Made by a program: the position numbers and the translations under genes
Source: Gammaproteobacteria bacterium
Lineage (GTDB): Bacteria; Pseudomonadota; Gammaproteobacteria; SZUA-152
Direction of reading: 5' to 3'
Assembly: GCA_011051685.1 (NCBI GenBank)
Contig: DRKQ01000082.1
Location: 1 to 41,392 of the forward strand
Length of the DNA: 41,392 bases
In this document: positions 9,153 through 35,835 of the stretch, piece after piece
Layout: each line of letters opens with the position of its first letter
Numbering within the stretch: the first letter of the stretch is position 1
Notes under the pieces: model-generated
The model's database searches: none
What the model was told of the DNA's origin: nothing
The model's input: only the letters and a program-made list of their open reading frames with translations

Positions 9153-9165
9153 CAGGAGATAGATT

Positions 9166-10878: not shown

Positions 10879-10922
10879 ATTTAAAAACCCCGTGTTTTTA
10901 TCAAAGCACGGGGTTTTTAAAT
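10879..10922. terminator. Bidirectional Rho-independent terminator
   Basis: A 16-bp perfect stem (10879-10894 with 10907-10922) has a GC core CCCCGTG/CACGGGG and A/T runs outside it. Transcripts in either direction therefore end the hairpin with a U run (GGGGTTTTTAAA). It lies between the + strand ars operon and the convergent minus-strand signalling operon, and can serve both. Confidence 0.9.
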
Positions 10923-11301: not shown

Positions 11302-11835
11302 TCACACCTTGTTTTCATCCAGGTAGAAGGAGCCATCGGGTTCCCAGTCAACCTTGGTGATCCCCGGATACTTGGCTTCAAGTTCCTCCAGGGCAGTTTG
11401 CTGTCGGTCCAGTTGTTGCCGTTGCTCCCGAACCCGATCTGCCAGGCGGCGGTTTTCCACCAGTGTATCGCGATAGCTCAGCGCCTGTTCCAGGGTGGTG
11501 ACCAAATCGTAATCACTCCAGGGTTTACTGATAAAACGGTAAATGCTGGCCTCATTGATCGCCCCCAACAGGGCTTCCAGATCCGTGTAGCCGCTTATGA
11601 TCAGCCGCATGGCCTCGGGTTGTAGTTGTTTCACCTGGCTGAGGAACTGCACACCGTCCATCACCGGCATACGGTAATCTGTCAATACCAGCTCGAAATT
11701 CATGACCCGTGTGCGCCGCAATGCCTCCTCGGCACGGGTGTAGGTTTCAATCTCCCAGTTCTTTTTCCGGCCCAGTGTGCGTCGCAGGGCCTTGAGAATA
11801 TTCTCTTCATCGTCGACTAATAGAATGCGGTACAT
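11302..11835 (-). CDS. Response regulator: REC domain plus coiled-coil tail
   Basis: The 177-residue protein has a complete receiver domain at about 1-120: acidic pair LLVDDEE, phospho-acceptor Asp in LVLTDYRMPVMDG, Ser in LIISGYTD and Lys in FISKPW. A predicted coiled coil follows at 125-155 and a short tail ends ...GSFYLDENKV. There is no DNA-binding or enzymatic output domain, so it probably works by protein-protein contact, as a phosphate sink or as a partner of the kinases upstream. The SGY-T-D ... I-Y-R/K-F-[IL]-[ST]-K-P-W pattern is shared with the REC domains of the HD-GYP, EAL and REC-PAS proteins of this cluster. It is the last gene of the operon, 21 bp after the HD-GYP gene, and faces the bidirectional terminator. 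Confidence 0.9.
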   Translation of the reverse strand: MYRILLVDDEENILKALRRTLGRKKNWEIETYTRAEEALRRTRVMNFELVLTDYRMPVMDGVQFLSQVKQLQPEAMRLIISGYTDLEALLGAINEASIYRFISKPWSDYDLVTTLEQALSYRDTLVENRRLADRVREQRQQLDRQQTALEELEAKYPGITKVDWEPDGSFYLDENKV

Positions 11836-11856
11836 AATGACACCTTTGCTCTTTAC

Positions 11857-13194
11857 TTATGCGTTACGAATCGAAAGGGTGAATTCGCGATTCATGGCCT
11901 GCTCAACACTCTGCATTTTCTCGATCAATACATCACTGAGGGTATAGCCACTGGATAACAATAGAATGCCGTCCTCGGTTACCAGGTCCTGTGCCAGCAC
12001 CATGCCGCTCTGCAGTCCGCCGGTCTTTACCTGCCGGTATTGCTCCGTCCCTGTCTCCTGCTGTTCTTCATCCAGCAGGGCAAGAAAGGCATCAACCACC
12101 TGCCGGTCGTAACGCTTGCCACCGTTCTCCCGCAAAAACTGTCTGGCCTGTACGTCGGGCAAGCGCTCCGTGAGCAGGGTGCCCCGCAGCAAGTCATCAT
12201 AGTCATTAACCACCGAAAGGATGCGTGCCCCCAGGGGTATGGCTTCTCCCTTCAATCCATCCGGATAACCCTGGCCGTCATAGCGTTCATGGTGACTGCG
12301 AATCAGGCGGGTAGCTTCATGCAGGGGTTCCAGTGCCATCAGTACGGCCTGACCCATAACCGGATGTTTTTGTACTTCCCTGGTTTCATCCGCGGTCAGG
12401 GCATTGTAGGGTTTGCCTGCCAGGGAATCCGGCAGGCCGATCTTGCCGATGTCGTGCAACAGGGCGGCATAGACAAGATCCTGCTCTTCCTCGTCAGCCT
12501 TGCCCAGACGCCGCGCCAGTTTTCCCGCCAGATCCGCCACCTGCCGTGAATGTCCTGCACCTTTCCCGTTGCCCTCACGCATTTCGATCAGACTGACGAA
12601 AGTCTTGATAACGGTGGTATAGCTTTTCTTCAGTTCCTCATGGGCCAGTTCCAGGAAGCTTGCTGTTTGCTGGATTTCCGCGGTGCGTTCCGCCACCCTG
12701 GCCTCCAGCCCGGCATTGAGTTCCTTGAGTTCCTCGTTTTGCCGCTGGGTCAGCGCTACCAGCCGGCGTCGCTCCTGTTCCAGTGCGCGCTGCTGCAAGG
12801 CGCGCCTGACCTGCAGGGTGATATCGTTTTCTTCCCAGGGTTTGCTGATGTAGCTATAAATCCTGCCCTTGTTGACCGCGGCGATGGTGGAAGTGATATC
12901 GGAATATCCGGTTAACAGGATGCGCATGGTGTCGGGCCAGTGTTGCGTCACCTGCTGCAGGAATTCCGCGCCATCCATTTCCGGCATGCGCATATCGGAG
13001 ATCACCAGATCAATATTTTCCTGCTCCATAAGTGCCAGTCCCTCGGCACCTCCCTGGGCGGTAAAAATGCGGTAACCCAGAGGGCGGAATACGCGTTTTA
13101 ATGATGACAGGATGTTCGTCTCATCGTCGACGAACAACAAGGTCGCCTCTTGTTGTGGCTGTAAGGGGGGCTGTGCATTGGCTGCTGTATTCAT
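11857..13194 (-). CDS. REC-HD-GYP response regulator (c-di-GMP phosphodiesterase)
   Basis: From ATG 13194 the protein has 445 residues: receiver domain (about 17-130; Asp in LVISDMRMPEMDG, Lys in ISKPWEE), coiled coil (about 135-190), HD-GYP domain (about 195-370; GHSRQVADLA, LLHDIGKIGLPD, HHERYDGQGYPDG) and a C-terminal segment (GMVLAQDLVTEDGILLLSSG...). HD-GYP enzymes hydrolyse c-di-GMP to pGpG or GMP; the HD and GYP motifs are intact, so activity is expected. AGGGA lies eight bases upstream of ATG 13194; an in-frame GTG at 13236 overlaps the preceding stop and is the alternative start. The C-terminal segment has the same pattern as the stand-alone 107-residue protein at 21125-21448. It probably lowers c-di-GMP in response to the neighbouring kinases. 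Confidence 0.93.
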   Translation of the reverse strand: MNTAANAQPPLQPQQEATLLFVDDETNILSSLKRVFRPLGYRIFTAQGGAEGLALMEQENIDLVISDMRMPEMDGAEFLQQVTQHWPDTMRILLTGYSDITSTIAAVNKGRIYSYISKPWEENDITLQVRRALQQRALEQERRRLVALTQRQNEELKELNAGLEARVAERTAEIQQTASFLELAHEELKKSYTTVIKTFVSLIEMREGNGKGAGHSRQVADLAGKLARRLGKADEEEQDLVYAALLHDIGKIGLPDSLAGKPYNALTADETREVQKHPVMGQAVLMALEPLHEATRLIRSHHERYDGQGYPDGLKGEAIPLGARILSVVNDYDDLLRGTLLTERLPDVQARQFLRENGGKRYDRQVVDAFLALLDEEQQETGTEQYRQVKTGGLQSGMVLAQDLVTEDGILLLSSGYTLSDVLIEKMQSVEQAMNREFTLSIRNA

Positions 13195-13235
13195 TGTTGC
13201 ATTTCCCTGTCCGTTAATATCTTGCGGGGTGCGCA

Positions 13236-15758
13236 CTAAAGGCTTTCAACCTTTGCTGTCTGATTCGCGCCATCCGCCGCAGGGTTTTCTTCTTGTTCGA
13301 CCGGTTGCATGTTTGCCTGCATGTCCATGTCGTTGGCTGTTTTCTGCGCTTGCTTTTCCGGCAACCAGACGCGAAAAATCGTGCCCTGACCCGGTTTGCT
13401 CCGGACTTCAATGCGTCCACCGTGCTTGCCGATGATGCCGTAGGACAAGGATAGACCCAGCCCGGTGCCGGTACCCACCGGCTTGGTAGTAAAGAAGGGA
13501 TCGAATATCCGCTTCAGGTGTTCGGCTTCGATGCCTTTGCCGGTGTCGGAAATTTCCACCCACACCCATTCGCCTTCTGTACCTGTTCGTACCGTGATCG
13601 TGCCCCGTTGCTCGATGGCATGGGCGGCGTTGACCAGCAGGTTCATGAATACCTGGTTGAGTTGCGAGGCCAGGCACTCCACCAGGGGCAGTTCACCGTA
13701 TTCCTTCACCACTTCCGCCTTGTACTTGAGTTCGTTGTTGACGATGTTCAGGGTGCTGTCCAGCCCGCGATGCAAATCAGCCCACTGCCATTCGGCCTGA
13801 TCCACATGGGAGAAGTCCTTGAGGTCCTGCACGATCTGCTTGACCCGGTCGATGCCCTCCTGGGATTCCCTGACCAGATCCAGGACATCCTCCTTCAGAT
13901 AATCAAGATCAAGCTCTTCCTTTTTGGCGGTAATCGAGTCCCTGGTAGTAGAATCGAGGGGAGGTGATGGCTCACTGACCTCATACAGGTTCAGCATTTC
14001 AATGAGCTTTCCGGTATGACTCTGCAAGGTATTCAGATTGGAGTAGATATAGCCTACCGGATTGTTGATTTCGTGAGCGACACCGGCGGCCAGTTGGCCG
14101 ATGGATGCCATCTTCTCTGATTGCAGCAGCTGGTCCTGGGCTGCTTGCAGTTTCTCCAGGGCCTGCTTGCGTTCGCTGATGTCGGTATGCGAGCCGGCCA
14201 TGCGCACCGGGTCGCCGTCCTTGTTGCGCACGGACAGGCCGCGGCACTGAATCCAGCGGTAATCCCCCCGTTTGTCCCGCAGCCGGTACTCAACAGCAAA
14301 TGTGTCCGTACCCCCCTCCAGGCAACCAAGCCATGCCTCCAGGGCGATGCTGAGATCCTCAGGATGAATCAGATCCTGCATGGCCACAAAATCATTCGCT
14401 ATCTCGGTCTCACCGTATCCCAGCATGGTCTTCCAGCGCGGCGAAAAATAGATCTTGCCGGTTTGCAGATTCCAGTCCCAGATGCCATCCTGGGTGCCGC
14501 GTGCCACCAGTGCGAAGCGCTCCTCGCTGAGGCGTAGTGTCTCCTGTGCCCGCTTGCGTTCGGTGATGTCGTGAAGTAAAGAACGCCTCATTTGCTCGAA
14601 TGAACCGGCAAGTACGCTGAATTCGTCATTTCCGGAAACTGCAACAGGCCGGTGCAGGTCGCCTTTTGCGATTCTTTCGGAGGCCGTAGCCAGCACTTGC
14701 AGGGGCTGAAATATGCGCTTGCGGATCAGCATGATCATACTGAACATGGCGGCCAGAACTGCGGATGTTACCGCAATTAATAACGCGGTCTTCTCGGTTT
14801 CCTCCCGGTGTACTGCGGTTGTGCTCTGTTTTGTACCCAGGCTGATAGCGTCCGCTACCATCAGGATCGAGTCGATGCCGCGAGTAGCTTCGGCGAACCA
14901 CGTGGCCGCATTGACCGGGTAGGCTGTGCGCCGTTCGCTGGCGGTATACACTGCTTCACGCAGCCGCTGGTAGCGCCCCAGGAACTCCTTGTTGAGTTTG
15001 TCCACTGTTTCTTTCAGTTGTGCTCCCCGTCTGGTTCCCTCTATCTCTCGGACGAGCTGTCCCAGTTTGTTCCCCACGGTGTCCCGGTAGTATTGCAGTC
15101 TGTGTACTTCCTCTGTGAACAGTGGCCTGCCCTCGGCAATGGCCGCACCGATGATGGCCCGTTCCCGTCCTGCATACTCGCTGGCTGTGAACACGATCTC
15201 CTTGCTCAGCAGGTTGTCGTAGTATGCCCTGCCAAATTCGTCCACGGGGTCGAATGCATCGCGCCGCACCTGGGCAAGGATTGCGATGAAGGCATCCATG
15301 GTGTCGACCCACGACTCTTTGTCTCTGGAGGTGTTGTTATTGTCGAGGAGACGGTCGACAAGCGTTCTTGCATATTCCACGGCCAGCCGGCGTTTTGCGA
15401 GGTGCTGCAGACTGTCGGCCAGGGGGTGAGAGTGGGTCTGCCCGGCGATCTCCCGGGCTATGGCGAGTGCCTGGTGATAGAGACCATCGCCTGCAGCCCG
15501 CAGCTCGAGCATTTGCGCCCGCGTTTCATCCGTGAGCGTTTCCGGGTGTGAAATCAGGATGTTCGTAAGGCCGCGCTCCCTCGCTTGTATCGAGTTTGCC
15601 CGGATGACAAGGTCTGCCAGGCGGTTGGCCTGAATGAGCCAATCGGCTTTGCGGGAGGTGACCGTCAGCTCGAATGTTTCCCAGGTGATGAAACTCAGCG
15701 AGATCAACGTCATCAAGCCAAACAGCGCGAATAAAAGATGTCGGATTTTCAGGCTCAT
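13236..15758 (-). CDS. NIT-HAMP-PAS sensor histidine kinase
   Basis: This 840-residue membrane kinase has TM1 at about 8-28 and a helical periplasmic sensor of about 290 residues. That sensor contains ARERGLTNILIS and long heptad-like helices, resembling the NIT (nitrate/nitrite-sensing) domain. TM2 (about 325-345), HAMP (about 346-398) and one PAS domain (about 405-525, ending HTDISERK) follow. HisKA has the phospho-site GVAHEINNPVGYIYSN, and HATPase_c has N box NLLVNAAHAIE, G1 DTGKGIE, F box FDPFFTTKP and G2 GTGTGLGLSLSYG. All kinase motifs are intact. The C-terminal 230 or so residues are nearly the same as in the kinases at 16632-18530 and 18527-20179. The PhnD-like binding-protein gene ends one base before its start. 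Whether the ligand is nitrate is unproven. Confidence 0.92.
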   Translation of the reverse strand: MSLKIRHLLFALFGLMTLISLSFITWETFELTVTSRKADWLIQANRLADLVIRANSIQARERGLTNILISHPETLTDETRAQMLELRAAGDGLYHQALAIAREIAGQTHSHPLADSLQHLAKRRLAVEYARTLVDRLLDNNNTSRDKESWVDTMDAFIAILAQVRRDAFDPVDEFGRAYYDNLLSKEIVFTASEYAGRERAIIGAAIAEGRPLFTEEVHRLQYYRDTVGNKLGQLVREIEGTRRGAQLKETVDKLNKEFLGRYQRLREAVYTASERRTAYPVNAATWFAEATRGIDSILMVADAISLGTKQSTTAVHREETEKTALLIAVTSAVLAAMFSMIMLIRKRIFQPLQVLATASERIAKGDLHRPVAVSGNDEFSVLAGSFEQMRRSLLHDITERKRAQETLRLSEERFALVARGTQDGIWDWNLQTGKIYFSPRWKTMLGYGETEIANDFVAMQDLIHPEDLSIALEAWLGCLEGGTDTFAVEYRLRDKRGDYRWIQCRGLSVRNKDGDPVRMAGSHTDISERKQALEKLQAAQDQLLQSEKMASIGQLAAGVAHEINNPVGYIYSNLNTLQSHTGKLIEMLNLYEVSEPSPPLDSTTRDSITAKKEELDLDYLKEDVLDLVRESQEGIDRVKQIVQDLKDFSHVDQAEWQWADLHRGLDSTLNIVNNELKYKAEVVKEYGELPLVECLASQLNQVFMNLLVNAAHAIEQRGTITVRTGTEGEWVWVEISDTGKGIEAEHLKRIFDPFFTTKPVGTGTGLGLSLSYGIIGKHGGRIEVRSKPGQGTIFRVWLPEKQAQKTANDMDMQANMQPVEQEENPAADGANQTAKVESL

Positions 15759-15759
15759 A

Positions 15760-16635
15760 TCAGGGTGACTCGTTGGCCGGTTGCTTTACCAGTTCATCCA
15801 GCAGGTCGATCCCCAGTGCACGCACATCGTCCCAGTCACTGTCCTCACCTTGCTCGAAGCCCTTGATGCGGATCGCGGCCAGCAGTTTTTTACCCCGTGG
15901 ATCCCGGTCCATGGCCAGCATGGCCTGTTGCAGGCGTTGCACCACCTGTTTTGTCACGCGCGGATGGGCGGCGATGGCGTGGGGAGTATAGGGCCGGGTG
16001 GTCCACAGGATACGCAGTTGATCACTGATGGCCGGATCGACATTGTTGAAGGTGCGGATCACTCCGCCACCGGCCGGATACAGCCCACGTGCCACAGTGC
16101 GGTACACCGAGTCGTGGGAGGAGACATACTTTGGCGTAATCGCAATACCCTCGGCCCTGAACCGGGCACGCGGCAACACGCTGGCGGCAAAGGCGGCAGG
16201 CGAGGGGAAAGCCAGTGTCTGACCGTCAAATTCCCGCAACTCTCTGGCCGGACTGTCCTTGCGCACCACGATGATGCCCTTGATACGCTTGTCCCTGGTT
16301 CGGGCAAAGGCCTGGTAGCCCGGCGTCCGATGGAAGGTGGTGTAGTGATAGGGGTTCATATAGGACAGGTCATATTCTCCCGCCGCCAGGCGTTGTTCAA
16401 AGGCGGGGATATCCTGTGCGGTTCTGAAACGCAGGCGGTAGCCGGTCTGCTCACCCAGGTAATTGAGGATCGGGGTCCACAGCCGCGCCAGTTTGCTGGC
16501 CGACTGCTGCGGGACGACACCAAAGCTGAGGGTAACCGGCTCCGCCTGTGCTCCGGTCATCGCCAGGGCGGGGAAGGTGATGCCGGCCGACATCCAGATC
16601 AGCGCAGCGGCCGTGTATACGGAACAGCGCATCAT
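15760..16635 (-). CDS. PhnD-like periplasmic substrate-binding protein, no ABC partner
   Basis: The 291-residue exported protein has a signal peptide (about 1-25, cleavage near TGAQA) and the PhnD fold: VTLSFGVVPQQSASKLARLWTPILNYLGEQTGYRLRF, then DLSYMNPYHYTTF, FPSPAAFAASVLPRA and YVSSHDSVYRTVARG. PhnD-type proteins bind phosphonate, phosphite or phosphate-like anions for ABC import. There is no permease or ATPase gene here; instead it is sandwiched between two sensor kinase genes, overlapping the stop of the one upstream (start ATG 16635) and ending one base before the NIT kinase. It is therefore more likely a ligand-sensing co-receptor than a transporter part. GGAGG lies seven bases upstream of the ATG. 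Confidence 0.88.
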   Translation of the reverse strand: MMRCSVYTAAALIWMSAGITFPALAMTGAQAEPVTLSFGVVPQQSASKLARLWTPILNYLGEQTGYRLRFRTAQDIPAFEQRLAAGEYDLSYMNPYHYTTFHRTPGYQAFARTRDKRIKGIIVVRKDSPARELREFDGQTLAFPSPAAFAASVLPRARFRAEGIAITPKYVSSHDSVYRTVARGLYPAGGGVIRTFNNVDPAISDQLRILWTTRPYTPHAIAAHPRVTKQVVQRLQQAMLAMDRDPRGKKLLAAIRIKGFEQGEDSDWDDVRALGIDLLDELVKQPANESP

Positions 16636-18530
16636 CCCGCCGCCTCCATGGGTGTTTCGGTCTGGCGCACCGGCAGGCACACCCTGAAAGTGGTGCCCTG
16701 GCCCAGTACGCTGTCCACCTCGATGCGCCCACCGTGTTTTTCCACAATGCCATAGGACAGCGACAGGCCCAGCCCGGTACCGCTACCCACCGGCTTGGTG
16801 GTAAAAAAGGGATCAAAGATGCGCTTCAGGTGTTCAGGCTCAATGCCCTTGCCGGTATCACTGATCTCCACCCACACCCAGTTATCCTCGGTACCGGTGC
16901 GGAGCGTAATCACGCCACGTTCCTCCATGGCGTGGGCGGCGTTGACCAGCAGATTCATGAACACCTGGTTAAGTTGCGAGCCGATACATTCAGTAAACGG
17001 TAGCTCGCCGTACTCCCTGACTATCTCGGCCTTGTACTTGAGTTCGTTATTGACGATATTGAGCGTGCTGTCCAGACCCTGGTGGAGGTCCACCTGCTGC
17101 CACTCTCCCTCGTCCACGTGGGAGAAATCCTTCAGGTCCTGGACGATCTGTTTGACCCGGGTCAGACCTTGATGGGACTCCTGCACCAGAGCCAGTACAT
17201 CCTCTTTGAGGAAATCGATATCGGCCTGTTGTCTGGCCGAGCGGATGTTTTGCAAGGCCGGCCCGTCCAGCAAGGACTCAGCCTGTTCGTAAGCCTCCAG
17301 CACCGCCAGCAATTGCTGGACATATTTCTGCAGGGTGCCGATGTTGGAATTGACGAAGCCCACCGGGTTGTTGATCTCGTGAGCCACGCCGGCGGCCAGC
17401 TGGCCGAGGGAGGCCATCTTTTCGGATTGCAGTAACTGTTCATGGGCTTCCTGCAGGCGTTTTATCAGTGCCCGCTGTTCTTTCTGCTCGGTATGCAGGT
17501 CCGCGTTGCTCCGGTGCAACGCGCCCAGCAATTCCTTGCGCTCAAGCACACCCGCCACCTGGATGACAAACAATTGCAGCAGGCTCTCGTCCTGAACCGT
17601 GAATGCTTCATCGCCGGGTTTGTCGGCCAATAGCAGGGCGCCGTGCAGCTGGCCGTCCAGGCGTAACGGCATCAGCAGCAGGTTGCTCCTCGCCGGGCAG
17701 TTCGGGGGTGCGAACTCGCAGCCGGGACAAGCGTCCGGTGCCTGGACGCGTAGCGGATTACCTTGCGCCAACAAGGAACACAGAATCCGTTGCCTGTCAT
17801 CCAGGCAGGCAAGCTGGGGAAATTCGCCATTGACCGCACCCGGGGTGATGACTTCTCCCGGTTCACCCGCCGCATCCAGCAGGGCGAGGGTGCCGTGGTG
17901 TGCACGGGTCATCACCATGGCGTGATGCACAATCTTCTGGTAGAAGCGTGACAGGTCTTCGCTGTTGCTCAGCGAACTTTGCGCCTCGGTAATCCACATC
18001 TGCGCCTCGGACCAGACCTCCTGCTGTCGGCGCGCCTGCTGCAATTGGTTGATCTGGGCCTGTAGAACTTCCGTCCCTGCCATGTCCTGCCCGGCAGATG
18101 TGCTTGCCTGCTTGTCCAGTTTGGCCTGAAAGGCATCAAGACGCTGACGGTAAGTGCTGATGCGCAGTAAGGAATGCACCCGTGCCCGCAGTTCGGTGTT
18201 GTCCACCGGTTTGCACACAAAATCGGTCGCGCCGAGTTCAATGGCCCGGCGCCGATTGCTGCTGTCGGACCAGGCGGTCATCACGCATACCGGGACGGGC
18301 TGAGTGGCCGCCATGGCCCGGAAGCGTTCCAGGAAGGTGAAGCCATCCATCACCGGCATTGCCAGGTCCAGCAGGATCAGATCCACGGGCTGGTCGGCGA
18401 GGATGTCCAGGGCCTGCCGGCCGTGTTCCGCCTCCAGGAAGTTCAGGCCGCTGTCGCGCAGGGCTCGTTTCACCGCAGCGCGGTTCGCCGCTTCGTCCTC
18501 GATCAGTAACAGTGTCCGTTCCCTGTTCAT
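16632..18530 (-). CDS. Soluble REC-GAF-histidine kinase
   Basis: From ATG 18530, which overlaps the upstream stop, the protein has 632 residues and no membrane helix. It contains a receiver domain (about 4-120; LLIEDEA, Asp in LILLDLAMPVMDG, Lys in FVCKPVD), a coiled coil, a GAF-like domain (about 185-345) and HisKA with LAAGVAHEINNPVGFVNSN. HATPase_c follows with NLLVNAAHAME, DTGKGIE and GSGTGLGLSLSYG. The GAF-like domain has an unusual cysteine cluster, DACPGCEFAPPNCP, which might hold a metal or redox group. A receiver at the N-terminus suggests this kinase is itself controlled by phosphotransfer from another kinase, for example CheA or a paralogue. The kinase core is almost shared with the two neighbouring kinases. 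Confidence 0.92.
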   Translation of the reverse strand: MNRERTLLLIEDEAANRAAVKRALRDSGLNFLEAEHGRQALDILADQPVDLILLDLAMPVMDGFTFLERFRAMAATQPVPVCVMTAWSDSSNRRRAIELGATDFVCKPVDNTELRARVHSLLRISTYRQRLDAFQAKLDKQASTSAGQDMAGTEVLQAQINQLQQARRQQEVWSEAQMWITEAQSSLSNSEDLSRFYQKIVHHAMVMTRAHHGTLALLDAAGEPGEVITPGAVNGEFPQLACLDDRQRILCSLLAQGNPLRVQAPDACPGCEFAPPNCPARSNLLLMPLRLDGQLHGALLLADKPGDEAFTVQDESLLQLFVIQVAGVLERKELLGALHRSNADLHTEQKEQRALIKRLQEAHEQLLQSEKMASLGQLAAGVAHEINNPVGFVNSNIGTLQKYVQQLLAVLEAYEQAESLLDGPALQNIRSARQQADIDFLKEDVLALVQESHQGLTRVKQIVQDLKDFSHVDEGEWQQVDLHQGLDSTLNIVNNELKYKAEIVREYGELPFTECIGSQLNQVFMNLLVNAAHAMEERGVITLRTGTEDNWVWVEISDTGKGIEPEHLKRIFDPFFTTKPVGSGTGLGLSLSYGIVEKHGGRIEVDSVLGQGTTFRVCLPVRQTETPMEAAG

Positions 18531-20179: not shown

Positions 20180-20195
20180 GGTCGCTATCCCCATC

Positions 20196-21448: not shown

Positions 21449-21449
21449 C

Positions 21450-22313: not shown

Positions 22314-22316
22314 GGC

Positions 22317-24398: not shown

Positions 24399-24403
24399 GG
24401 GCC

Positions 24404-26095: not shown

Positions 26096-26114
26096 GAGCT
26101 GTTTTCTCCCTTCG

Positions 26115-27239: not shown

Positions 27240-27270
27240 TTTTCTTTTCCTGGTGACGCGTTATCACTCA

Positions 27271-28149
27271 TTACCTCTTCCGGTACACACTGGGTGCGGC
27301 CGGCTCCAGCTGCCTGGAAATGCCGGTAATGGTCTCGGTATGGCTGACAAAAAAATGGCCGCCCGGTCTCAGGCGCGACAGCAGGCGTTTAACGATCTCC
27401 TGGCGGGTCGGTGCGTCGAAATAGATCAGCACGTTGCGCAGAAAGATGGCGTCGAATTGCCCGGTTTCCTCCGGTAACGGCGCATTCAGGTTGATGTGCC
27501 GGAACTGCACCCGTTGCCGCAACCGTTTGTCGATCAGCAGGGTTCCGTGCTGGGTGCGCACCCCCTTGAGGCAATATTTTTGCAGATAGGCTTTGGGGGT
27601 ATATGAAGTCCGTTCCATGGAGTAATGTCCTGCCCGTGCTGTTACCAGTACCCGGGTGGAGATATCGGAGCCAAAAATCTCCCACGGCGACTCGCCCAGC
27701 TGATCTGCTGTCACCATGGCCATACTGTAGGCTTCTTCACCGCTGGAACAGGCTGCGCTCCAGGCGCGGAACTGGCGACCTCGTTTCCAGCCGGCCAGGA
27801 TGCCATCGCGCAGGAATTCAAAATGGGCGGGCTCACGGAACAGGTAGGTCTCGTTGGTGGTCAGCAGGTCCAGCATGACCTGGCGTTCATTCGCCAGGGT
27901 TCCGTCGATTGCCTGCTGAAAGTATTCCCCGTAGGAGGGCAGGTGGTAATGCCGGAGCCGCCTGGCCAGCCGCGAGGCCACCATCTGCTTCTTGGCCAGG
28001 GTCAATTGAATACCGACCTGTTTTTGCAAGTAGTCGCGAATGCGAAGAAATTCGTCATTGGAGATGGAAAAGACCAGCTCGCCTGCTTCGGCGGTGGCTG
28101 GTCCCTGCACCACAGGGGGCATATCCTGCGATGGCAGGGGATAAGCCAA
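27271..28149 (-). CDS. cheR: Chemoreceptor methyltransferase CheR
   Basis: The protein has a CheR N-terminal helical domain (about 30-95; LRIRDYLQKQVGIQLTLAKK) and an S-adenosylmethionine-dependent methyltransferase domain (about 100-290): TTNETYLFREPAHFEFLRD, WSAACSSGEEAYSMAM, IFGSDISTRVLVTARAG, FDAIFLRNVLIYF and SHTETI. It methylates receptor glutamates. The probable start is TTG 28149, eight bases after GGGGAAGG and directly behind the cheW stop (292 residues); ATG 28122 is the next candidate but its AGGA lies one base away. Longer starts would overlap cheW. Confidence 0.93.
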   Translation of the reverse strand: MAYPLPSQDMPPVVQGPATAEAGELVFSISNDEFLRIRDYLQKQVGIQLTLAKKQMVASRLARRLRHYHLPSYGEYFQQAIDGTLANERQVMLDLLTTNETYLFREPAHFEFLRDGILAGWKRGRQFRAWSAACSSGEEAYSMAMVTADQLGESPWEIFGSDISTRVLVTARAGHYSMERTSYTPKAYLQKYCLKGVRTQHGTLLIDKRLRQRVQFRHINLNAPLPEETGQFDAIFLRNVLIYFDAPTRQEIVKRLLSRLRPGGHFFVSHTETITGISRQLEPAAPSVYRKR

Positions 28150-28150
28150 C

Positions 28151-28723
28151 TCAGATACCTTCCCCGGACGGTTCGGATAAAGCGGTCTCTGTCGGTGTCT
28201 CAGGCTGAGCCTGGTGCTGCACCTCGTCAAGCAGGGACAACTCGTCGATGGACAATACATTGGCCACATCCAGTAACACCAGGAACTTGCCGTCGACCTT
28301 GCCCATGCCCTTGATAAAATCGGTGCGTATCCTGGCGCCGAAGCTGGGTGCCGGTTCGATATCACCAGGCGGAATCTCCAGCACCTCGTTGACACCATCC
28401 ACTATCGCACCGATGTTCAGTGTGGTTTCGCCATCCGGGATCTCGATAATGATGATACCGGTACGCTTGGTGATCCCTGCCGGTTCGCCATCGAAACGTG
28501 CCGCCAGATCCACTACCGGCACTACACTGCCGCGCAGATTGATAACGCCGCGAATGAAGGCGGGCATCATAGGCACGGTAGTCAGGTTGCCGTAGTCAAT
28601 GATTTCGCGAATGCTCAGGATCTCGATGGCATAGACCTCGCCGCCCAGGGTAAAGGTCAGAAACTGGTTCTGGTCGGCGTTGGGGTCGGCCTCTGTGTAG
28701 TTTTGTTCAGCGACTTGTGCCAT
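28151..28723 (-). CDS. cheW: Chemotaxis coupling protein CheW
   Basis: The 190-residue protein is a single CheW domain: QFLTFTLGGEVYAIEILSIREII, PAFIRGVINLRGSVVPVVDLAARF, TGIIIIEI, IGAIVDGVNEVLEIP and FIKGMGKVDGKFLVLLDV. It has about 35 extra acidic residues at the C-terminus. CheW bridges receptors and CheA. The gene lies 6 bp after the large receptor gene and abuts cheR. The acidic tail is longer than in typical CheW (about 150-165 residues) and its role is unknown. Confidence 0.95.
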   Translation of the reverse strand: MAQVAEQNYTEADPNADQNQFLTFTLGGEVYAIEILSIREIIDYGNLTTVPMMPAFIRGVINLRGSVVPVVDLAARFDGEPAGITKRTGIIIIEIPDGETTLNIGAIVDGVNEVLEIPPGDIEPAPSFGARIRTDFIKGMGKVDGKFLVLLDVANVLSIDELSLLDEVQHQAQPETPTETALSEPSGEGI

Positions 28724-28729
28724 AACCGC

Positions 28730-31543
28730 CTACCCTCCTTGTGCAAAGCTTTCGAAGTCCGACTCGTCCACGTCGGTGAATTCCGGCGCTGGCGCGACTA
28801 CGCTTGCGGACTGCCGGGTATCGTCATTGCCGGACTTCTCTGCATGGGAAGCGCCCCGGGTCGCCTTGCGCAGCCCGGCGCCCTTGCTTTCAGATTTCCG
28901 CCGTTCATCCACGCCGGCAGTTTGTTCGCCGAGGTTGAAGAAGCCCATCAACTCCTGCAAATATTCGGCCTGGGCCTGTAACTGCGTGGCCGTTGCTGCC
29001 AGTTGTTCAGAACCGGAAGCACTTTGCTGGGTGACCTGGTCAAGCTGGGCCATGGCGCTGGTGATCTGCCCCGCACCGGCGGCCTGTTCTTCGGAGGAGG
29101 CGGTAATCTCCTGCACCAGATCGGCGGTCTTGGCGATATTGGGGACCATTTCCTCCAACAGGGTGCCGGCCTTTTCGGCGATCTTTACACTGTTGCCGGC
29201 GCGGTCGCTGATCTCCTGGGCGGCAACCTGGCTGCGTTCCGCAAGCTTGCGCACCTCGGCCGCTACTACGGCAAAGCCCTTGCCATGCTCACCGGCGCGT
29301 GCTGCCTCGATAGCCGCATTCAGGGCCAGCATGTTGGTTTGATAGGCGATTTCTTCGATAATGCCGATCTTCTCGGCGATGCTCTTCATGGCGTCCACGG
29401 TCTCCGCCACCGCCTGGCCACCTTCCCTGGCCGATTTGGCCGCTTCGTTGGCGATGCCGTCGGTGATCTTGGCGTTCTCACTGTTTTGATTGATTGAGGC
29501 GCTCATCTCTTCCACCGAGGCCGAGGTTTCTTCCACGCTGGAGGCCTGTTCGCTGGCGCCCTGGCTCAGACTCCCCGCCGTGGCATTGACCTGTTCAGAG
29601 GCACTGGATATGCCGTTGGCGTTGCTGTACACATCGGTGATGACCTCCGACAGCTTGTGGATGGTAGCGTTTACGTCGTCCTTGAGCTGGGCAAAGATAC
29701 CGTAATAATCGTCGTCGATGGTCTGGGTCAGGTCGCCTTTTGCCAGGGTACGGATCACTCGCACCACGTCATTGAGACTGACCTCGGTGGTTTCCATCAC
29801 GGTATTGATGCCCCCGGCCAGACGTTCGAAAAAGCCTTCCTTGCCAGTCATATCGATACGCTGGGTGAAATCGCCCATGCCTGCCGAGGTGACGATATCA
29901 GCGATCTCGCCTTCCACGGCCACTTCATCGGTGCGGTCCGTCCACTCCACCACCGCGCCCAGTCGTTCGCCGTCCGTATCCAGCACCGGGTTGGCCACCA
30001 CGGTCATGGTGCGTCCGCCGATATTGAGGGTAGCCTCATAGGTCGAGGTCAGGCGCTCCAGCAAACCGCGCTGGTGGGCCGGGTTCTTATGGAAATCGTC
30101 AATGCAAGTCCCCATCAGGTTGTCGGCATCGAAGTTGGGCAAGTCCTTGCGGATGTCACTCTCGGCGTGTTTAAACATCTGTTGCACGGCCTTGTTCATG
30201 TAGATGATGTTGAGATCTTTGTCCGCCATCATTACGTTGGTATTGACCTGATCCAACGCCACTCGCACCCGCAGGTTCTCGGCGGCGATGAGGCGATCTT
30301 CTTCCTGGCGCTGGCGTTCGCGCTCTTCTGCCTCCAGCTCGGCGGTCTTGTCGGCCCATTCCACCACCGTTCCCAACCGCTGGCCATGCTCATCAATCAC
30401 CGGGTTGGCAATAACATCGAAGGTGCGTCCGCTGACCTCGACACGGGATTGATAGGTGGACTCAAGTTTTTCGAGCAGGCCGCGCTGGTGGGCCGGGTTC
30501 TGGTGGAAGCGATCGATACAGGCCCCTTGCAATTTGCTCGCATCAAAATCCGGGATACCTTTGCGCAGATCTTCCTGGGCGTCGGCAAACATCTGCTGAA
30601 CGGAGTCGTTCAGATAAACAATGTTGTAGTCGGTATCCGCCACCATGACATTGGTATTGACATTATCCAGCGCCACTTTGAGGCGCAGTGCGGAATCAGC
30701 CCGCTGCCGGGCGTCGTTGACCTCGAAGCCCAGCTTGATCTGCATGGACTTCAGGGCGCGCATCACATCACCGATCTCGTCAGGACGATCAATATCGATG
30801 ACCCCGTCGTAGCGACCCTCGGCGATCTCATTGAAATAGCCGATGGTCTTTTCCAGGGGGCGCAGGACCGAGCGGCCAACCAGCCAGTATAACGCCGCGC
30901 ACAACAATAACAGGGTGGCTCCCAGTCCAATCATCATCTCATGCATGGTCTCGACAAGATCCGTGTTGATGTTGGCAGTGTCTGCCGTGGCCAGCGCAGA
31001 AATATTATCGTACTGAATCAGACCAAAGGCGCCGAAGCTCAGCACCACGGTTGTTATCAGTGCATAAAGCTTTTGCCTGATGTTCATCCTGCTGAAAATG
31101 TTGAACCGTGCCGCCAGGCTCGCCTTGGGGGGCTTGCCCGCGTTGAGTTGCTGGTAAAGGGCTTCGGCCCGGGTGATCTGATCACGGCTGGGCAGGGTGC
31201 GTACCGACATGTATTCAGTTACGCGACCGTTTACGCGGACCGGGGTGACATTGGCATTGACCCAGTAGAAATCTCCGTTCTTACAGCGATTCTTGACCAC
31301 TCCGGTCCATGGTTTGCCGGCCTTGACTGAATTCCACAGATCCTGGAAGGCTGCGGGTGGCATGTCCGGGTGGCGGACCATATTGTGGTTTTTCCCGATC
31401 AGTTCATGTTCGGAAAAACCACTGATGCTTACAAAATCCGGATTGACATAAGTGATAATGCCTTTTAAGTCCGTTTTGGAGACAATGAGCTGTCCGGCTT
31501 CCAACTGAACCTCATTGTTGGTGACTGGCATGTTGCTTTTCAT
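28730..31543 (-). CDS. Large chemoreceptor with Aer-like PAS and tandem PAS repeat
   Basis: The 937-residue methyl-accepting protein starts with an Aer-like PAS (about 10-125; [33 protein letters not shown]). A membrane region with two helices (about 165-185, 205-230) and HAMP follow, then two cytoplasmic PAS-like domains (about 295-405 and 430-540). These two are clearly tandem copies: both contain V-A-L-D-x-V-N-T-N-V-M-x-A-D, C-I-D[13 protein letters not shown] and a VVEW end. A second HAMP-like stretch and the receptor signalling domain come last (hairpin tip [43 protein letters not shown]). The periplasmic loop is very short, so sensing is probably intracellular (redox, energy or a bound cofactor). 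It has no C-terminal CheR-tethering pentapeptide. The SD AGGAG lies about ten bases upstream of ATG 31543. Confidence 0.93.
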
Positions 31544-31635
31544 GACGTTGCTACTCCTTTTCCCAGGCCGGTATGGCCCTCCAATAAATGTTTAACCCTT
31601 GCAGAGCTCAGGGTCGTGTCCTTTGTGCACCCGTT

Positions 31636-33843
31636 TCAATGGGCCAGCATGGACGGCATTTCCACGCCGTCCCTGATCCGCCGGTTACCGTTCATGGCAA
31701 CCCGCTGTATTAATTCCGGGACATCAATGATCATGGCTACCTCGCCACTACCGAGGATGGTCGCCCCGCTAACGCCTTCCAGATGACTGAAGATTTTTCC
31801 CAGGGGCTTGATCACGGTCTGGTACTCGCCCAGTAGTTCGTCTACCACCAGGCCGGCCTTCTGGCCGGCGAAACTGGTGACAACAATGTTTTCGCGCCGG
31901 CTCCTGCCCCCCGTCTCCCGGAACAGTTCACCGAGATGGATAAAGGGCAAAACTTCACCACGAAGATTGATGTATTCGTTGGCCTGATCGTCGTTGGCAT
32001 GGGCGGGCAGCTCGACACACTCTTCCACCATATCCAGCGGAATGACGTAGGAAGCGTCTCCCACCCGCACCAGGAAGCCGTCGATAATCGCCAGGGTCAG
32101 CGGCAGGCGGATACTGAAGCGGCTGCCCTTGCCGGGCCGGCTTTCCACATCCACCTGACCACGCAGGGCCTCGATGTTGCGCCGCACTACATCCATGCCC
32201 ACACCACGGCCTGAAATATTGGTGACCTGTTCAGCGGTGGAGAAACCCGGTTCAAAAATCAGCCGGTAAACTTCCTGGTCAGAGAGGGACTGATTCGGGC
32301 TGACCAGACCCAGTTGCCGGGCCTTGTCCAGAATCTTGTCACGTGGCAGACCACCGCCATCGTCTTCCACCTCGATGACGATACTGCCGGAATCATGATA
32401 CGCATTGAGTTTCAGCTTGCCCCTGGCGGGTTTATTGTTTTCCTGCCGTGTTTCGGCCGACTCGATGCCGTGATCGATGGCGTTGCGCACCAGGTGCATG
32501 AGAGGATCGCCGATCTTCTCTACCACGGTCTTGTCCAGTTCCTTGTCGCTACCGCTGAGTTCCAGCTCAATATCCTTGCCCATGGACTGACTGACGTCGC
32601 GTACCACGCGCCGGAAACGGTTGAAGGTCTCGCCGATGGGCACCATGCGCAAACCCAGTCCGGTGTCACGGATGTCTTCCACCAGGCGGGACATATTCTC
32701 CAGCGATTCAATGAGTGCCGTGTCCCTGGTACGGTCGCCCAGTAGCCTGGTATTTGCGCTGGAGATCACCAGTTCACCGACCAGGTCGATGAGCTGCTCC
32801 AGTTTGTCCGCACTGACCCGGATAGACTTGTTAGCCAGGGCCTGGTTTTCCCTGACCTGTTTTTGTTTTGCAACCGCTGTTTCGATGACCTCGGGTAGTA
32901 CCACGCCTTCCCTAAGCAATACCTTGCCGATGGGTTCATCAGGCTCGGAATTGGTTTGTGTGGTTGTTTGTTGTTGCAGAGCTTCGTCGATTTCGCGTGA
33001 CGTTGTGGCGCCGCTCTTGACCAGGATCTCACCCAGGCGCTGTTGCTCATCGGTGTCGGTTTCCTCGATAACGGCTTGATACTGAGGCAGCTTTGTGAGG
33101 GGAGGGAGGATGCGTAAGCGGCAGTCATCGATAACAAACTGAAATATTTCCTCAATGGCCAGTTTATTCAGATCCGTGTCGAACTCGATTTCAAACGCCA
33201 GATAACAGCTTTCCGGATCCATATATTCTGCCGCGGGCATCTCGTCCCACAGGGTGACCAGGCTGACAATGTCGCCCTGCGTGCCCAGGTATCGAATGAA
33301 AGACTGTGGATCCATACCGTTACGCAGAACATCGTGCCCGAAGCGGATGGAGATATGCCAGTAATCGCCCTGGGCGGTATCGGCCGGTACACTCTCCCGG
33401 CCCGGATTCTCGTCGCTTGCTGCCAGATGCGGCTCCGGGACCTGCAGGGAGTCTTCCAGATAAGTGTCCAGTTGTGCCGACAGGGCACGGCCTTTTTGCT
33501 GTACTTCTGCACTACCACCGTCATGCCCGGCAACCGCCGCATCCACTAATTGCCCCATGACATCCCGGCAGGACAGCAATAGCGACAACAACTCCTGGGA
33601 AATCGCCAGTTCTCCGGCGCGCACGCGATCCAGTACGCTCTCCACTCCATGGGTAAAACCGATAAGCGCTTCGTAGGCAAACAGTCCTGCCGAGCCCTTG
33701 ATGGTGTGAGCGGCACGAAAAACGGAATTGATGTGATCCATGTCGCCCGGGTTGTTTTCCAGTTGCAGCAACGACTGCTCCATATCGTCCAGCAATTCTC
33801 CGGCTTCCGTTTCGAACAACTGTACGTCTTCATCCTGGCTCAT
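31636..33843 (-). CDS. cheA: Chemotaxis histidine kinase CheA
   Basis: The 735-residue protein has an Hpt/P1 domain (about 1-110; phospho-His in RAAHTIKGSAGLFAYEA) and a P2-like region with a poorly conserved middle (about 150-330). The dimerisation P3 starts SIRVSADKLEQLIDLVGELVI, the P4 ATPase has HLVRNAIDHGIES, VEDDGGGLP and GRGVGMDVVRRNIE, and the P5 CheW-like domain is about 590-725. All catalytic boxes are intact. One Hpt is present rather than several. ATG 33843 overlaps the stop of the STAS gene (ATGA). It should phosphorylate the CheY at 34231 and CheB, and perhaps the REC proteins further down the operon. Confidence 0.96.
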   Translation of the reverse strand: MSQDEDVQLFETEAGELLDDMEQSLLQLENNPGDMDHINSVFRAAHTIKGSAGLFAYEALIGFTHGVESVLDRVRAGELAISQELLSLLLSCRDVMGQLVDAAVAGHDGGSAEVQQKGRALSAQLDTYLEDSLQVPEPHLAASDENPGRESVPADTAQGDYWHISIRFGHDVLRNGMDPQSFIRYLGTQGDIVSLVTLWDEMPAAEYMDPESCYLAFEIEFDTDLNKLAIEEIFQFVIDDCRLRILPPLTKLPQYQAVIEETDTDEQQRLGEILVKSGATTSREIDEALQQQTTTQTNSEPDEPIGKVLLREGVVLPEVIETAVAKQKQVRENQALANKSIRVSADKLEQLIDLVGELVISSANTRLLGDRTRDTALIESLENMSRLVEDIRDTGLGLRMVPIGETFNRFRRVVRDVSQSMGKDIELELSGSDKELDKTVVEKIGDPLMHLVRNAIDHGIESAETRQENNKPARGKLKLNAYHDSGSIVIEVEDDGGGLPRDKILDKARQLGLVSPNQSLSDQEVYRLIFEPGFSTAEQVTNISGRGVGMDVVRRNIEALRGQVDVESRPGKGSRFSIRLPLTLAIIDGFLVRVGDASYVIPLDMVEECVELPAHANDDQANEYINLRGEVLPFIHLGELFRETGGRSRRENIVVTSFAGQKAGLVVDELLGEYQTVIKPLGKIFSHLEGVSGATILGSGEVAMIIDVPELIQRVAMNGNRRIRDGVEMPSMLAH

Positions 33844-34187
33844 GACAGAGGCTCTCCTGTAGATGCCTTTTCCTTGTCACAGTCTGCCAATTTCCGTTCG
33901 ACCTGCCCGGTGACGTGAAAAAGTTCGAAGACATCCTGCACGGGAAGGCTGTGGTTGTTTATTAGCAGGGTCGTTTCGTTACGATCTGCCTCACGTTTCA
34001 GTAATGCCAGCAACTGAAAACCTGCGGTGTCGAATTCCATCACCTGCGAAAGATCCAGCTCCATGGTCTGACATTTGGCCAGTTTTTGAAGCAATTTGTC
34101 TTTCAGTTCACAGGATGTATAGATGTTCATGTCGCCATCTATTTTCGCTTTGCACTTTCCCTTGCTTGTCCGTGCGGTTAAAGGCAT
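33840..34187 (-). CDS. STAS-domain protein of the chemosensory cluster
   Basis: The 115-residue protein is a single STAS domain (anti-sigma-factor-antagonist fold): CKAKIDGDMNIYTSCELKDKLL, MELDLSQVMEFDTAGFQLLALLK and VFELFHVTG. The usual phospho-serine of the D-S-x-G motif is Thr here (FDTAGFQLL), still phosphorylatable in principle. STAS genes are seen beside cheY and cheA in a number of proteobacterial clusters, where they may switch partners with a kinase or phosphatase; none of those partners is recognisable here. ATG 34187, with AAGGGAAA upstream, is preferred over a start 24 codons earlier that would overlap cheY. Confidence 0.88.
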   Translation of the reverse strand: MPLTARTSKGKCKAKIDGDMNIYTSCELKDKLLQKLAKCQTMELDLSQVMEFDTAGFQLLALLKREADRNETTLLINNHSLPVQDVFELFHVTGQVERKLADCDKEKASTGEPLS

Positions 34188-34230
34188 TTTGTTATTTCCC
34201 TTGTTTGTTCCCGTGATGTCACACTGCCTG

Positions 34231-34599
34231 TCAGGGCAAAACCAGTTTGGAGACGGCATCCAGAAGTTGCGGTGGCTGAAAAGGTTTGACTACCCATGCC
34301 TTGGCGCCCGCTGCCTTGCCTTCCTGCATCTTGCTTTGTTCTGATTCCGTGGTGAGCATGCAGATGGGGGTAAATTTATAGTTTGGCAGTTTCTTTACTT
34401 CCCTGACGAATGTAATGCCATCCATGTTGGGCATGTTGACATCGCTGATAATAAGATGAATCTTTACGCCATTGAGTTTGCTGAGCGCATCCACGCCATC
34501 TTCGGCCTGGATCACCTCGTAACCCTCGCGCTTGAGAGCAAGTCCTACGACCTGGCGGATGGACGATGAGTCATCAACAATTAGAATGGTCTTGCTCAT
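34231..34599 (-). CDS. cheY: Single-domain response regulator CheY
   Basis: The 122-residue stand-alone receiver has the acidic triad ILIVDDSSSIRQ and Asp in LIISDVNMPNMDG, Thr in CMLTTES and Lys in WVVKPFQPP, all canonical. In flagellated bacteria CheY-P binds the motor; here no flagellar gene is present, so the target is open. The tip sequence KAWVVKPF is typical of CheY from CheA systems rather than of the REC-PAS and REC-EAL proteins downstream. It lies 24 bp after the short MCP-like gene and 43 bp before the STAS gene, so it is the second gene of the operon. Confidence 0.93.
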   Translation of the reverse strand: MSKTILIVDDSSSIRQVVGLALKREGYEVIQAEDGVDALSKLNGVKIHLIISDVNMPNMDGITFVREVKKLPNYKFTPICMLTTESEQSKMQEGKAAGAKAWVVKPFQPPQLLDAVSKLVLP

Positions 34600-34623
34600 A
34601 GTATTTGTCCTGAAAAGAGATCC

Positions 34624-35835
34624 TCAAAAAAATTCCACCTGTGCCTTGACAGGTTCGTGATCGGTGATTCCCTGGTGATTCAGCTTCTGCTCGAATGTTG
34701 TATAGCTTGCCTCCATTTCATCCATCCATGACTGCATGTCGATGGGGGAGGTTTCAGCGCCGGCTTCCATGTTTTCAAGTCGCGCACGCAGCGCGTTTAT
34801 GTGTTGTATCACCTGGCTGAGGATTTGCGAGACACGATCCTGAAATTGCAATGACACCAGCACGTCCGAGATTTCGTTCTGTATACCCGTGCCCGCATCC
34901 GCCAGTTCTGCGGTTGCATCCATCAGTGAAGTAGTCACTGTTCGAAAGCTTCCCATGACGTCATGTATGGTTTCTTCTGATGCTTTTACCGATTCCTCAT
35001 CCCGCTGGGCGGATTTGTCGGTCAGATCGACTACCGTGGTCATCGAACTGGTTACATTCAGTACCAGTTCGGTGATTTTCTTGCTGGTGTCTGCCGATTC
35101 TGTCGAGAGTTTGCGTACTTCGTCTGCCACTACGGAAAAACCCCTTCCGGCCTCACCTGCCCGGGCCGCCTCGATGGTGGCGTTCAGGGAGAGCAGGTTG
35201 GTTTGTTGTGCGATCTTTCCCACCTCATCCCCCATGATCACCAGTTTCTTCATGTGTGTACTCAGTGCACGGATCTCCCTCACCATGTCCTGTTTCGCCT
35301 GTTGGGCATCGTTGAGTGCAAGGATTACTGATGCCAGTTCCGTTTCGCTTTTGTTAAACAGGCCAACAATGCCACCTTCATTACCACTCTCACCTGCATC
35401 CACTTCTTCGGTTGACCTGTGGGCGGCCGCCACGGCTTTTTCGAGGTTGAGTGCCAGATCCGAGAACCTGGTTGCCAGATCGGTAATCGCGGTTTGGGTC
35501 TGGCTGCGGGCTGTTTCAACCTGCCGTTCCCAGATATGAAAGGAATTCTGCAATAGCTCGCTGTCCTCTCGTTGTCCGGCTTCGTTATCTGTTGTGACCA
35601 ATGCCGGTGAAGACTGTTTGCTTTCCTCAATGAGTTGCGAGGCCGTTTTCGGCAACCACACTGAGATAGTGATTGCCAGCGCCAAAACAGAACCGCTTGC
35701 AGCAAGGAGCAAGGTATTAACGGGGCTGAAAACAAGCAGCAATACTGCTGCGATCACTCCCTGCAGGACAGGAGCCATCCATAACGCCCTGTAATTCAGT
35801 CTGTTGCTCATGTTGTTGTCTGCTACTGTGCCCAT
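34624..35835 (-). CDS. Short MCP-like protein, first gene of the signalling operon
   Basis: The 403-residue protein has two closely spaced N-terminal membrane helices (about 16-60) with almost no periplasmic loop, then a coiled-coil signalling domain with the receptor tip [45 protein letters not shown]-terminal helical segment contains [18 protein letters not shown]. There is no ligand domain, HAMP or pentapeptide. Such short receptors next to che genes may sense membrane or internal cues, or act as an adaptor for arrays. ATG 35835 follows AAAGGG; longer starts read through a region without coding character. The operon promoter must be upstream of 35835 but no clear -35/-10 pair was found. 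Confidence 0.9.

Follow-up and report, generated by a model that had tools for sequence, protein, structure and literature searches.

The locus described here raises the question of whether a chemosensory core, several histidine kinases (HKs) and enzymes of cyclic di-guanosine monophosphate (c-di-GMP) turnover, encoded in one run of genes, belong to a single signalling system. The window, i.e., the whole stretch of 41,392 nucleotides that was analyzed, is the complete contig C82 (DRKQ01000082.1) of a Gammaproteobacteria bacterium genome of 3.36 Mb in 308 contigs (GCA_011051685.1). Reading of its open reading frames (ORFs) with Pfam revealed 19 consecutive genes, all on the minus strand, from 35835 to 11302. 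In transcription order, they encode a short methyl-accepting chemotaxis protein (MCP), CheY, a STAS protein, CheA, a long PAS/HAMP-rich MCP, CheW, CheR, CheB, a REC-HK-REC hybrid and a REC-PAS-GGDEF-EAL protein, followed by a KPW receiver, a 107-aa protein, an HDOD protein, a HAMP kinase, a REC-GAF kinase, a PhnD-like protein, a NIT-HAMP-PAS kinase, a REC-HD-GYP protein and a second KPW receiver (KPW is our own label for a motif common to the two receivers). An earlier note on this DNA had given a single common strand, this order and these boundaries, all of which were confirmed, as was the absence of flagellar, pilus, cheZ and cheD genes among the 19; it had counted three kinases besides CheA, whereas there are four, the additional one being the hybrid, and its EAL protein does contain an EAL domain, within a fuller REC-PAS-GGDEF-EAL make-up with a degenerate GGGEF site. 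Two putative features that it had not seen are put forward as new here, namely, a CheZ-type motif in the short MCP, so that the absence of CheZ holds for the gene and not for the motif, and an MshEN-like motif in CheA. The best explanation of the run, to which we give about an even chance, would be an F8-like non-flagellar chemosensory system combined in one probable operon with an independent receiver/HDOD/kinase/HD-GYP module.

The short MCP has a hydrophobic hairpin (read by eye) and a normal MCP signalling tip, its gene adjoins cheY, and Pfam found no ligand-binding domain in it. The short MCP thus shows the traits of McpA/CttP-like receptors: a hairpin without a ligand domain, a neighbouring cheY and a conserved C-terminus whose second position is non-aromatic. 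The function of McpA has been called "unclear", and its C-terminus "highly conserved" with an "unclear biological role", and clusters of F7 stages 1 and 2 contain cheY and no cheZ (PMC7184735; this paper, PMC7750401, PMC9855816, PMC5013675 and PMC11253619 are cited throughout from the accessible parts of their texts). In the window protein, the motif QFQDRVSQ starts 109 residues past the MCP tip. The Q, F, Q, D and Q of QFQDxxxQ were invariant in 37/37 homologues with identities to the window protein down to 20% (L and G numbers are locus and genome handles; L056, which nearly duplicates L055, is not part of set A1), and the invariant columns comprised the tip residues, Q349, F350, Q351, D352, Q356, Y397, H406 and F422. 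The CheZ signature consists of AxxFQ and then DxxxQ (PMC7750401); E. coli CheZ reads AQDFQDLTGQ, and at the first position of AxxFQ the short MCPs have A as their consensus, with S in the window. The pattern [QD]FQDxxxQ was found in 39 of the 112 MCP-tip ORFs, all of the short type, and in none of the 73 others, whereas outside MCP-tip ORFs it occurred in only 7 ORFs of a set of 5527, all with CheZ-type ends (both sets include duplicates: L090 = L026, and L004 = the window).

Alignment of the short MCP tail with CheZ using hhalign gave 79% (E-value = 1.6e-5) over 66 gap-free columns with the motifs in register, and the whole protein gave 48%. A tail profile built without CheZ matched proteins of 95 out of 274 Gammaproteobacteria genomes, and all six sampled hits of CheZ size (252–336 aa) were CheZ encoded between cheY and cheA. 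Several observations weigh against a CheZ-type role. The Pfam CheZ family was found at E ≤ 0.1 in only 15/37 homologues (best 5.2e-6), followed by a coiled-coil family in 5/37 (best 1.3e-5), and the window protein scored 19.6 bits against a gathering cut-off of 30.7. In a search of the tail profile against all PDB chains, CheZ (1kmi_Z) ranked 12th of 14 (E-value = 2.9), below unrelated helical proteins. The short MCP ends in QVEFF, which is conserved but unlike the CheY-binding peptide DDLLxSLGF of CheZ. No McpA-like gene was found upstream of cheY in genome G060 or in 7 of the 44 loci with sufficient upstream sequence (L027, L040, L061, L062, L064, L065 and L069), and Shewanella McpA clusters with the F6 kinase (PMC9855816). 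In favour of such a role, homologue L154 keeps the D and Q of the motif although its F and Q are changed. No mention of a CheZ-like site in McpA was found in the accessible literature, which mostly excluded subscription journals, so prior publication is possible. Two further proteins of the host genome should be mentioned: an MCP upstream of an F7-like cheY-cheA pair (L155:1773-3527, contig C242) ends in GIELF and lacks FQDxxxQ, while a second McpA-like protein of 409 aa (L261:2336-3562, contig C207), with LQFEDMTRQ and a VELF end, lies near ORFs weakly similar to the HAMP kinase and the KPW receiver of the window.

The motif is also carried by short ORFs without an MCP tip. FQDxxxQ was found in L164 (beside cheY of an F7-type cluster), L188 and L249, and QFYDxxxQ was present in 13 of the 16 short proteins read, all but one of which have [IVF]E[LF]F as their C-terminus (12/13). 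A cheR match lay near seven of the 13 QFYDxxxQ ORFs, accompanied in six by cheB, and for the other six the fetched stretch contained no che gene. Pfam and NCBIfam gave no convincing name for the tip-less ORFs among the proteins scanned, and the QFYDxxxQ ORFs look like a free CheZ-type family. Among the best-hit loci of the motif profile, 28/30 had the motif, which is expected because the profile was built on it; the independent part is the cheY match in the fetched stretch of 25 of these 28. The QFYDxxxQ ORFs (L193, L194, L250–L255, L257–L260 and L262) are 167–236 aa long and mostly have IELF-type ends.

The second feature lies in the window CheA, between P2 and P3, and consists of the segments RLGEILVKSGATTSREIDEALQQQ and PIGKVLLREGVVLPEVIETAVAKQ. 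Family NF053729, an MshE-related c-di-GMP motif, matched this CheA (E-value = 3.3e-8) and 33/40 chosen CheAs (set A4, best 8.7e-12), a proportion that overstates the frequency because A4, picked from a group of 66, omits most motif-less members. At least one copy of the published relaxed pattern of 24 residues (PMC5013675) was present in the linker of 28/66 group CheAs vs. 0/40 others, the two sets being divided at 43% identity to the window protein and the 40 others including near-duplicates (E. coli CheA twice and one Xanthomonas CheA twice); a looser MshEN pattern of our own fitted 36/66. In 20 of the 40 others (set A5), NF053729 was not among the top 25 families listed, the last of which has 6 members, which is no strict zero.

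A c-di-GMP-binding role of this segment is opposed by the following. The NF053729 match in the window scored 33.2 bits, below the cut-off of 38, and Pfam MshEN gave no hit in A4 at E = 0.01. Both motif copies fit the published pattern in 1/66 and the looser one in 9/66; in the window, there is one strict copy, as motif II fits and motif I has Thr at position 12, and the spacer between them is 11 residues rather than the 5 of the 53-residue MshEN domain (PMC10519070). Moreover, most Pseudomonas members no longer have the motif, and neither does L024, the nearest relative. The segment is named MshEN-like here because of the 11-residue spacer and the lack of a Pfam MshEN hit. In the background of 5527 ORFs, 30 had the pattern at least once, some being these CheAs, and none had a pair, so this background is uninformative on pairs. 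It should be noted that CheA has already been named among MshEN partners (PMC5013675). A text search of PMC10782961, which deals with CheA architectures, gave no match to MshEN or c-di-GMP.

The genes from the short MCP to CheB, here termed module 1, were compared by a peptide-pattern scan with CheA over 84,980 species genomes, which gave 52 loci; two weak ones (L074 and L075) were left out, and the counts refer to 50 loci (L024–L073), several of which end at contig edges. All eight core genes were matched in 25/50 loci, the core match immediately before cheA was STAS in 39/50, and the core layout was kept in further Gammaproteobacteria genomes, i.e., module 1 is a widespread and already known kind of chemosensory system. 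A quick tree was built from 100 CheA cores (LG+G4, midpoint root, some long branches flagged); in it, 64 sequences including that of the window formed one clade (Shimodaira–Hasegawa-like approximate likelihood ratio test 99), sister to the clade with E. coli CheA (F7), and cheZ-linked CheAs fell outside. The long MCP is shorter than Tar (36 heptads, 36H) by one symmetric heptad per helix, which makes it a 34H receptor, and 34H receptors have been assigned to F8 (PMC11253619). Because of this receptor and the CheA clade, the core was called F8-like, a putative assignment based on a tree that includes no named F8 CheA. Class F9 (V. cholerae cluster I) was also considered and found no support in the accessible literature. 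Four residues before its C-terminus, the long MCP has DFESF, which resembles a CheR tether; the C-terminal ends of its relatives are EFTRF, LFTGF and HFDAF. In P. syringae, a mutant in the F8 cheA was altered in attachment, Congo red uptake and swimming with chemotaxis unchanged, the F8 CheY did not bind FliM, and the F8 CheA bound WspR in a two-hybrid assay (PMC11253619). By analogy with these data, a non-flagellar target of CheY is favoured; phosphotransfer from CheA to CheY is opposed by the two-hybrid test of the same F8 system, in which no CheA1-CheY1 interaction was detected (PMC11253619). Two or three copies of F8-like clusters, in tandem or dispersed, are present in some Pseudomonas (L047, L059 and P. 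gingeri L053/L159/L160). The metagenome bins L030 and L037 are labelled Bordetella parapertussis and Klebsiella pneumoniae, but in the tree their CheA falls with that of a betaproteobacterial bin, and these labels may be wrong.

Module 2 comprises the KPW receiver, HDOD, kinases, REC-HD-GYP and the last receiver. In whole or in part, it was found without a che cluster in stretches of 5.7–20 kb from six genomes (L235–L240), as a KPW receiver, in some cases the 107-aa protein, HDOD and a kinase, with REC-HD-GYP and a KPW receiver in some of them; all six of its elements were present in L235 and L236, the latter having one 111-aa CheA-like ORF next to the module. Both modules stand on one contig in G060 (L088 and L089; cheY through HD-GYP) and in G057 (L092; cheR and cheB through the HAMP kinase), although PhnD, HD-GYP and the last receiver were not found beyond the HAMP kinase on the G057 contig, a point against the preferred explanation. 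In G058, matching pieces lie on separate contigs (L025, and L093 with KPW receiver to PhnD) and fit the join, whereas G059 has the core and the hybrid kinase without module 2 (G146/G057 and G135/G060 appear to be the same genomes entered twice). The run joins two modules in one probable operon. In L241, a PhnD-like protein lies beside a HAMP kinase with no che match in the stretch, which suggests a sensory pair of binding protein and kinase.

These results bear on the earlier note's view of one signalling machine. A single transcription unit linking a CheA system to kinases and c-di-GMP enzymes is probable, but one undivided machine is not supported: the chemosensory half is common alone, and module 2, whole or partial, stands without a che cluster in stretches from six genomes. 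The note's neighbourhood check accordingly had a divided outcome, with subsets separate in many genomes yet joined in G060 and G057 and in split pieces in G058. The earlier note knew of no described system with this composition; module 1 is an already known F8-like kind, and the run is conserved in part. As to its extent, the 19 genes hold, and a CHASE-type (CHASE-PAS) kinase and a LuxR-type regulator upstream (40098–36532) adjoin the core in a number of the 50 loci.

Concerning transcription, the best ATG of the first gene is at 35835, with the upstream sequence ATGGAAAGGG, and 11302 is the end of the last gene. With the likely start codons, the largest intergenic gap is 92 bp (cheA to long MCP), and the several 4-bp overlaps noted earlier number four (STAS/cheA, 107-aa protein/HDOD, HAMP kinase/REC-GAF kinase and REC-GAF kinase/PhnD). 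A sigma-70-like scan of the run revealed only a single weak minus-strand site (23995–23968), and the same scan found no site upstream of the first gene. Terminator-like hairpins of the minus strand found in the run all fall inside genes; a weak one at 34654–34637, at the 3′ end of the first gene, counts against a single transcript and could be an attenuator. Counts of such elements were set aside as uninformative on their own (terminator-like, 21 vs. 15.4 expected, standard deviation 3.9, and 10 vs. 15.9; promoter-like, fewer than in shuffles). Rfam and tRNA scans of the window gave no matches. The 19 genes are likely one transcription unit.

The residue audit showed intact catalytic residues in EAL and HD-GYP and GGGEF in place of GGDEF in the window. 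A lowering of c-di-GMP, as the earlier note proposed, is therefore plausible, but the GGDEF of orthologue L092 is intact, and a degenerate GGDEF was ruled out as a conserved feature. The hybrid kinase of the window has the H-box HALRTP, the G2-box DSKGLS and Ala for Asp in its second REC, and looks inactive, which counts against the preferred explanation. The H-box has HA in L092 as well and Tyr for His in L090, whereas the kinase is intact in L088, so a conserved pseudokinase was ruled out as a rule. The decay of this gene (24404–26095) is a repeated one, as residues were lost differently in the window, L090 and L092.

With gene order, domain content, conservation and the two motifs as the observed basis, the activities and interactions of the preferred reading may be pictured as follows. 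The 34H PAS receptor, CheW and CheA would form an array in which CheA phosphorylates CheY and CheB, and the short MCP, possibly within the array, would be a membrane-anchored phosphatase that dephosphorylates CheY via D-x-x-x-Q and replaces CheZ. Binding of c-di-GMP at the MshEN-like segment would tune the activity or coupling of CheA. The kinases of module 2, with the PhnD-like protein as periplasmic co-sensor, would act on the KPW receivers by phosphorylation and in this way control the two phosphodiesterases, EAL and HD-GYP, so that c-di-GMP level and CheA output are connected in a loop. We infer a two-way link, in which enzymes of the operon change c-di-GMP and CheA reads it. A more general proposal is held only tentatively and is rather unlikely at present: McpA/CttP-type receptors of F7/F8 would be receptor-embedded CheY phosphatases, members of a second CheZ-type family that also occurs free, and CheA of this clade would directly read c-di-GMP. 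If so, the operon of the window would form a closed circuit: its c-di-GMP enzymes would determine the gain of the CheA array, and the array's own receptor would quench the signal. A CheA that reads c-di-GMP, encoded together with c-di-GMP enzymes, could help explain why P. syringae F8 mutants change in attachment rather than chemotaxis, and two major signalling systems of bacteria would meet in a single protein.

Three other explanations were weighed. The two modules could be unrelated and share a promoter, i.e., an array with its own CheY target and a kinase/HD-GYP c-di-GMP module with nothing but timing in common. This is possible, if on the doubtful side: each module is found without the other in further genomes, G059 lacks module 2, and module 2 has its own kinases, while the two modules are again joined in G060 and G057 and the pieces in G058 agree with this, although all of these may stem from one event, and the MshEN-like motif in CheA speaks for a connection. 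The short MCP, for its part, might be an ordinary accessory receptor that enters the F6 flagellar array, as published proposals have it for McpA, FQDxxxQ being a structural element of its helical bundle. The intact MCP tip, the reports of McpA with F6 arrays (PMC9855816, PMC7184735) and the PDB profile search, which does not single out CheZ, agree with this; it is nevertheless judged unlikely, as the motif is common to CheZ, is absent from the 73 other MCP-tip ORFs and occurs in short ORFs without a tip (L164, L188 and L249, and as QFYDxxxQ in 13 more).

A partner switch appears improbable; in this reading, a diguanylate cyclase would be under the control of the STAS protein, as with HsbA or SiaC, and CheA would act on the switch. 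The Pfam matches of the run include no PP2C or anti-sigma kinase, and what we take to be the phospho-serine position is Ala (DTAG) in the window and Ser (DTSG) in one relative. In its favour, STAS stands directly before cheA in most loci (39/50), and anti-sigma antagonists are present in F7 clusters (PMC7184735).

The features of the window are listed in Table 1. Elsewhere in the host genome, a cheZ lies next to a cheA on C102, fliM is on C85 and an F7-like cheA is on C242; given the separate cheZ beside cheA and fliM, the host probably has flagella and an F6 system of its own. The left end of the window (971–10724) contains a mercuric-reductase-like gene, for a pyridine-nucleotide reductase that includes an HMA domain, and MerR regulator, HMA, NHL-repeat, DsrE and SBF-family genes, the content of which is unrelated to the operon.

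Table 1. Coordinates of the features identified in the window.
Feature	Position	Strand	Basis or remark
CHASE-PAS-HisKA_3 sensor kinase, upstream companion of core	37426..40098	-	Pfam; adjoins core in a number of relatives
LuxR-type response regulator, upstream companion	36532..37299	-	Pfam; adjoins core in a number of relatives
Short MCP, McpA/CttP-like	34624..35835	-	Pfam MCPsignal 2.2e-29; CheZ 9.3e-4, under cut-off
CheZ-like motif QFQDRVSQ, aa 349-356 of 422-aa ORF	34825..34848	-	Homologue alignment
Short MCP C-terminal peptide QVEFF	34627..34641	-	Homologue ends x-[IVL]-x-[FL]-F
CheY	34231..34599	-	Pfam Response_reg 1.5e-27
STAS domain protein	33840..34187	-	Pfam STAS_2 6e-10; ORF opens 34259, best start 34187
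CheA (P1, P2-like, MshEN-like linker, P3-P5)	31636..33843	-	Pfam; tree
MshEN-like motif pair in CheA, aa 269-329	32857..33039	-	NCBIfam NF053729 3.3e-8 for aa 304-330, under cut-off
Long MCP: PAS, membrane segment, HAMP, PAS, PAS, HAMP, 34-heptad signalling domain	28730..31543	-	Pfam
CheW	28151..28723	-	Pfam 1.9e-37
CheR	27271..28149	-	Pfam 2.6e-49; ORF opens 28398, best start near 28149
CheB	26115..27239	-	Pfam 6.9e-65
REC-HK-REC hybrid, degenerate in window	24404..26095	-	Pfam; residue audit
REC-PAS-GGDEF(degenerate)-EAL	22317..24398	-	Pfam
KPW-type receiver with C-terminal extension	21450..22313	-	Pfam
107-aa conserved protein	21125..21448	-	No Pfam match; adjoins HDOD in L092, L093, L088, L235, L236
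HDOD protein	20196..21128	-	Pfam 4.5e-57
HAMP sensor kinase	18527..20194	-	Pfam
REC-GAF sensor kinase	16632..18530	-	Pfam
PhnD-like periplasmic binding protein	15760..16635	-	Pfam Phosphonate-bd 1e-66; adjoins HAMP kinase in L093, L241
NIT-HAMP-PAS sensor kinase	13236..15758	-	Pfam
REC-HD-GYP, intact HHERYDGQGYP	11857..13236	-	Pfam; residue audit
KPW-type receiver, last gene	11302..11835	-	Pfam
Strong palindromic terminator-like hairpin, 20 pairs	10879..10922		After last gene

Among known systems, the window core shares with F8 (P. syringae cluster II, PMC11253619) the 34-heptad receptor, and its long MCP has a CheR-tether-like end and its CheA a clade beside F7; in the window, the same run also contains a STAS gene, the McpA-like short MCP with its CheZ-like motif and, downstream, the c-di-GMP/kinase module. 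Like F7 (Che2/Aer2-McpA, PMC7184735), it has an mcpA-like gene in a cheY-cheA cluster, a PAS-bearing receptor and a STAS gene and lacks cheZ, whereas it differs in the absence of cheD, in 34 rather than 36 heptads and in a CheA of the sister clade with an MshEN-like linker. The CheA segment resembles MshEN (PMC5013675) in its RLGxxL-type motifs of 24 residues, but it has a longer spacer, rarely has two full motifs and is degenerate in part of the clade, and its binding of c-di-GMP is putative. As in CheZ, the short MCP has FQ-DxxxQ in a predicted helix and a conserved C-terminal hydrophobic peptide after a linker; unlike in CheZ, the motif sits in a membrane-anchored MCP, scores under the Pfam cut-off and is followed by another C-terminal peptide. 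In the Wsp system, the receiver is a diguanylate cyclase. The coupling of a chemosensory kinase to c-di-GMP turnover likens the window to Wsp (alternative cellular function class, ACF) and to the CheA-DipA link of P. aeruginosa (PMC11253619). The window differs from both in its phosphodiesterases, its extra kinases and a putative c-di-GMP reader in CheA.

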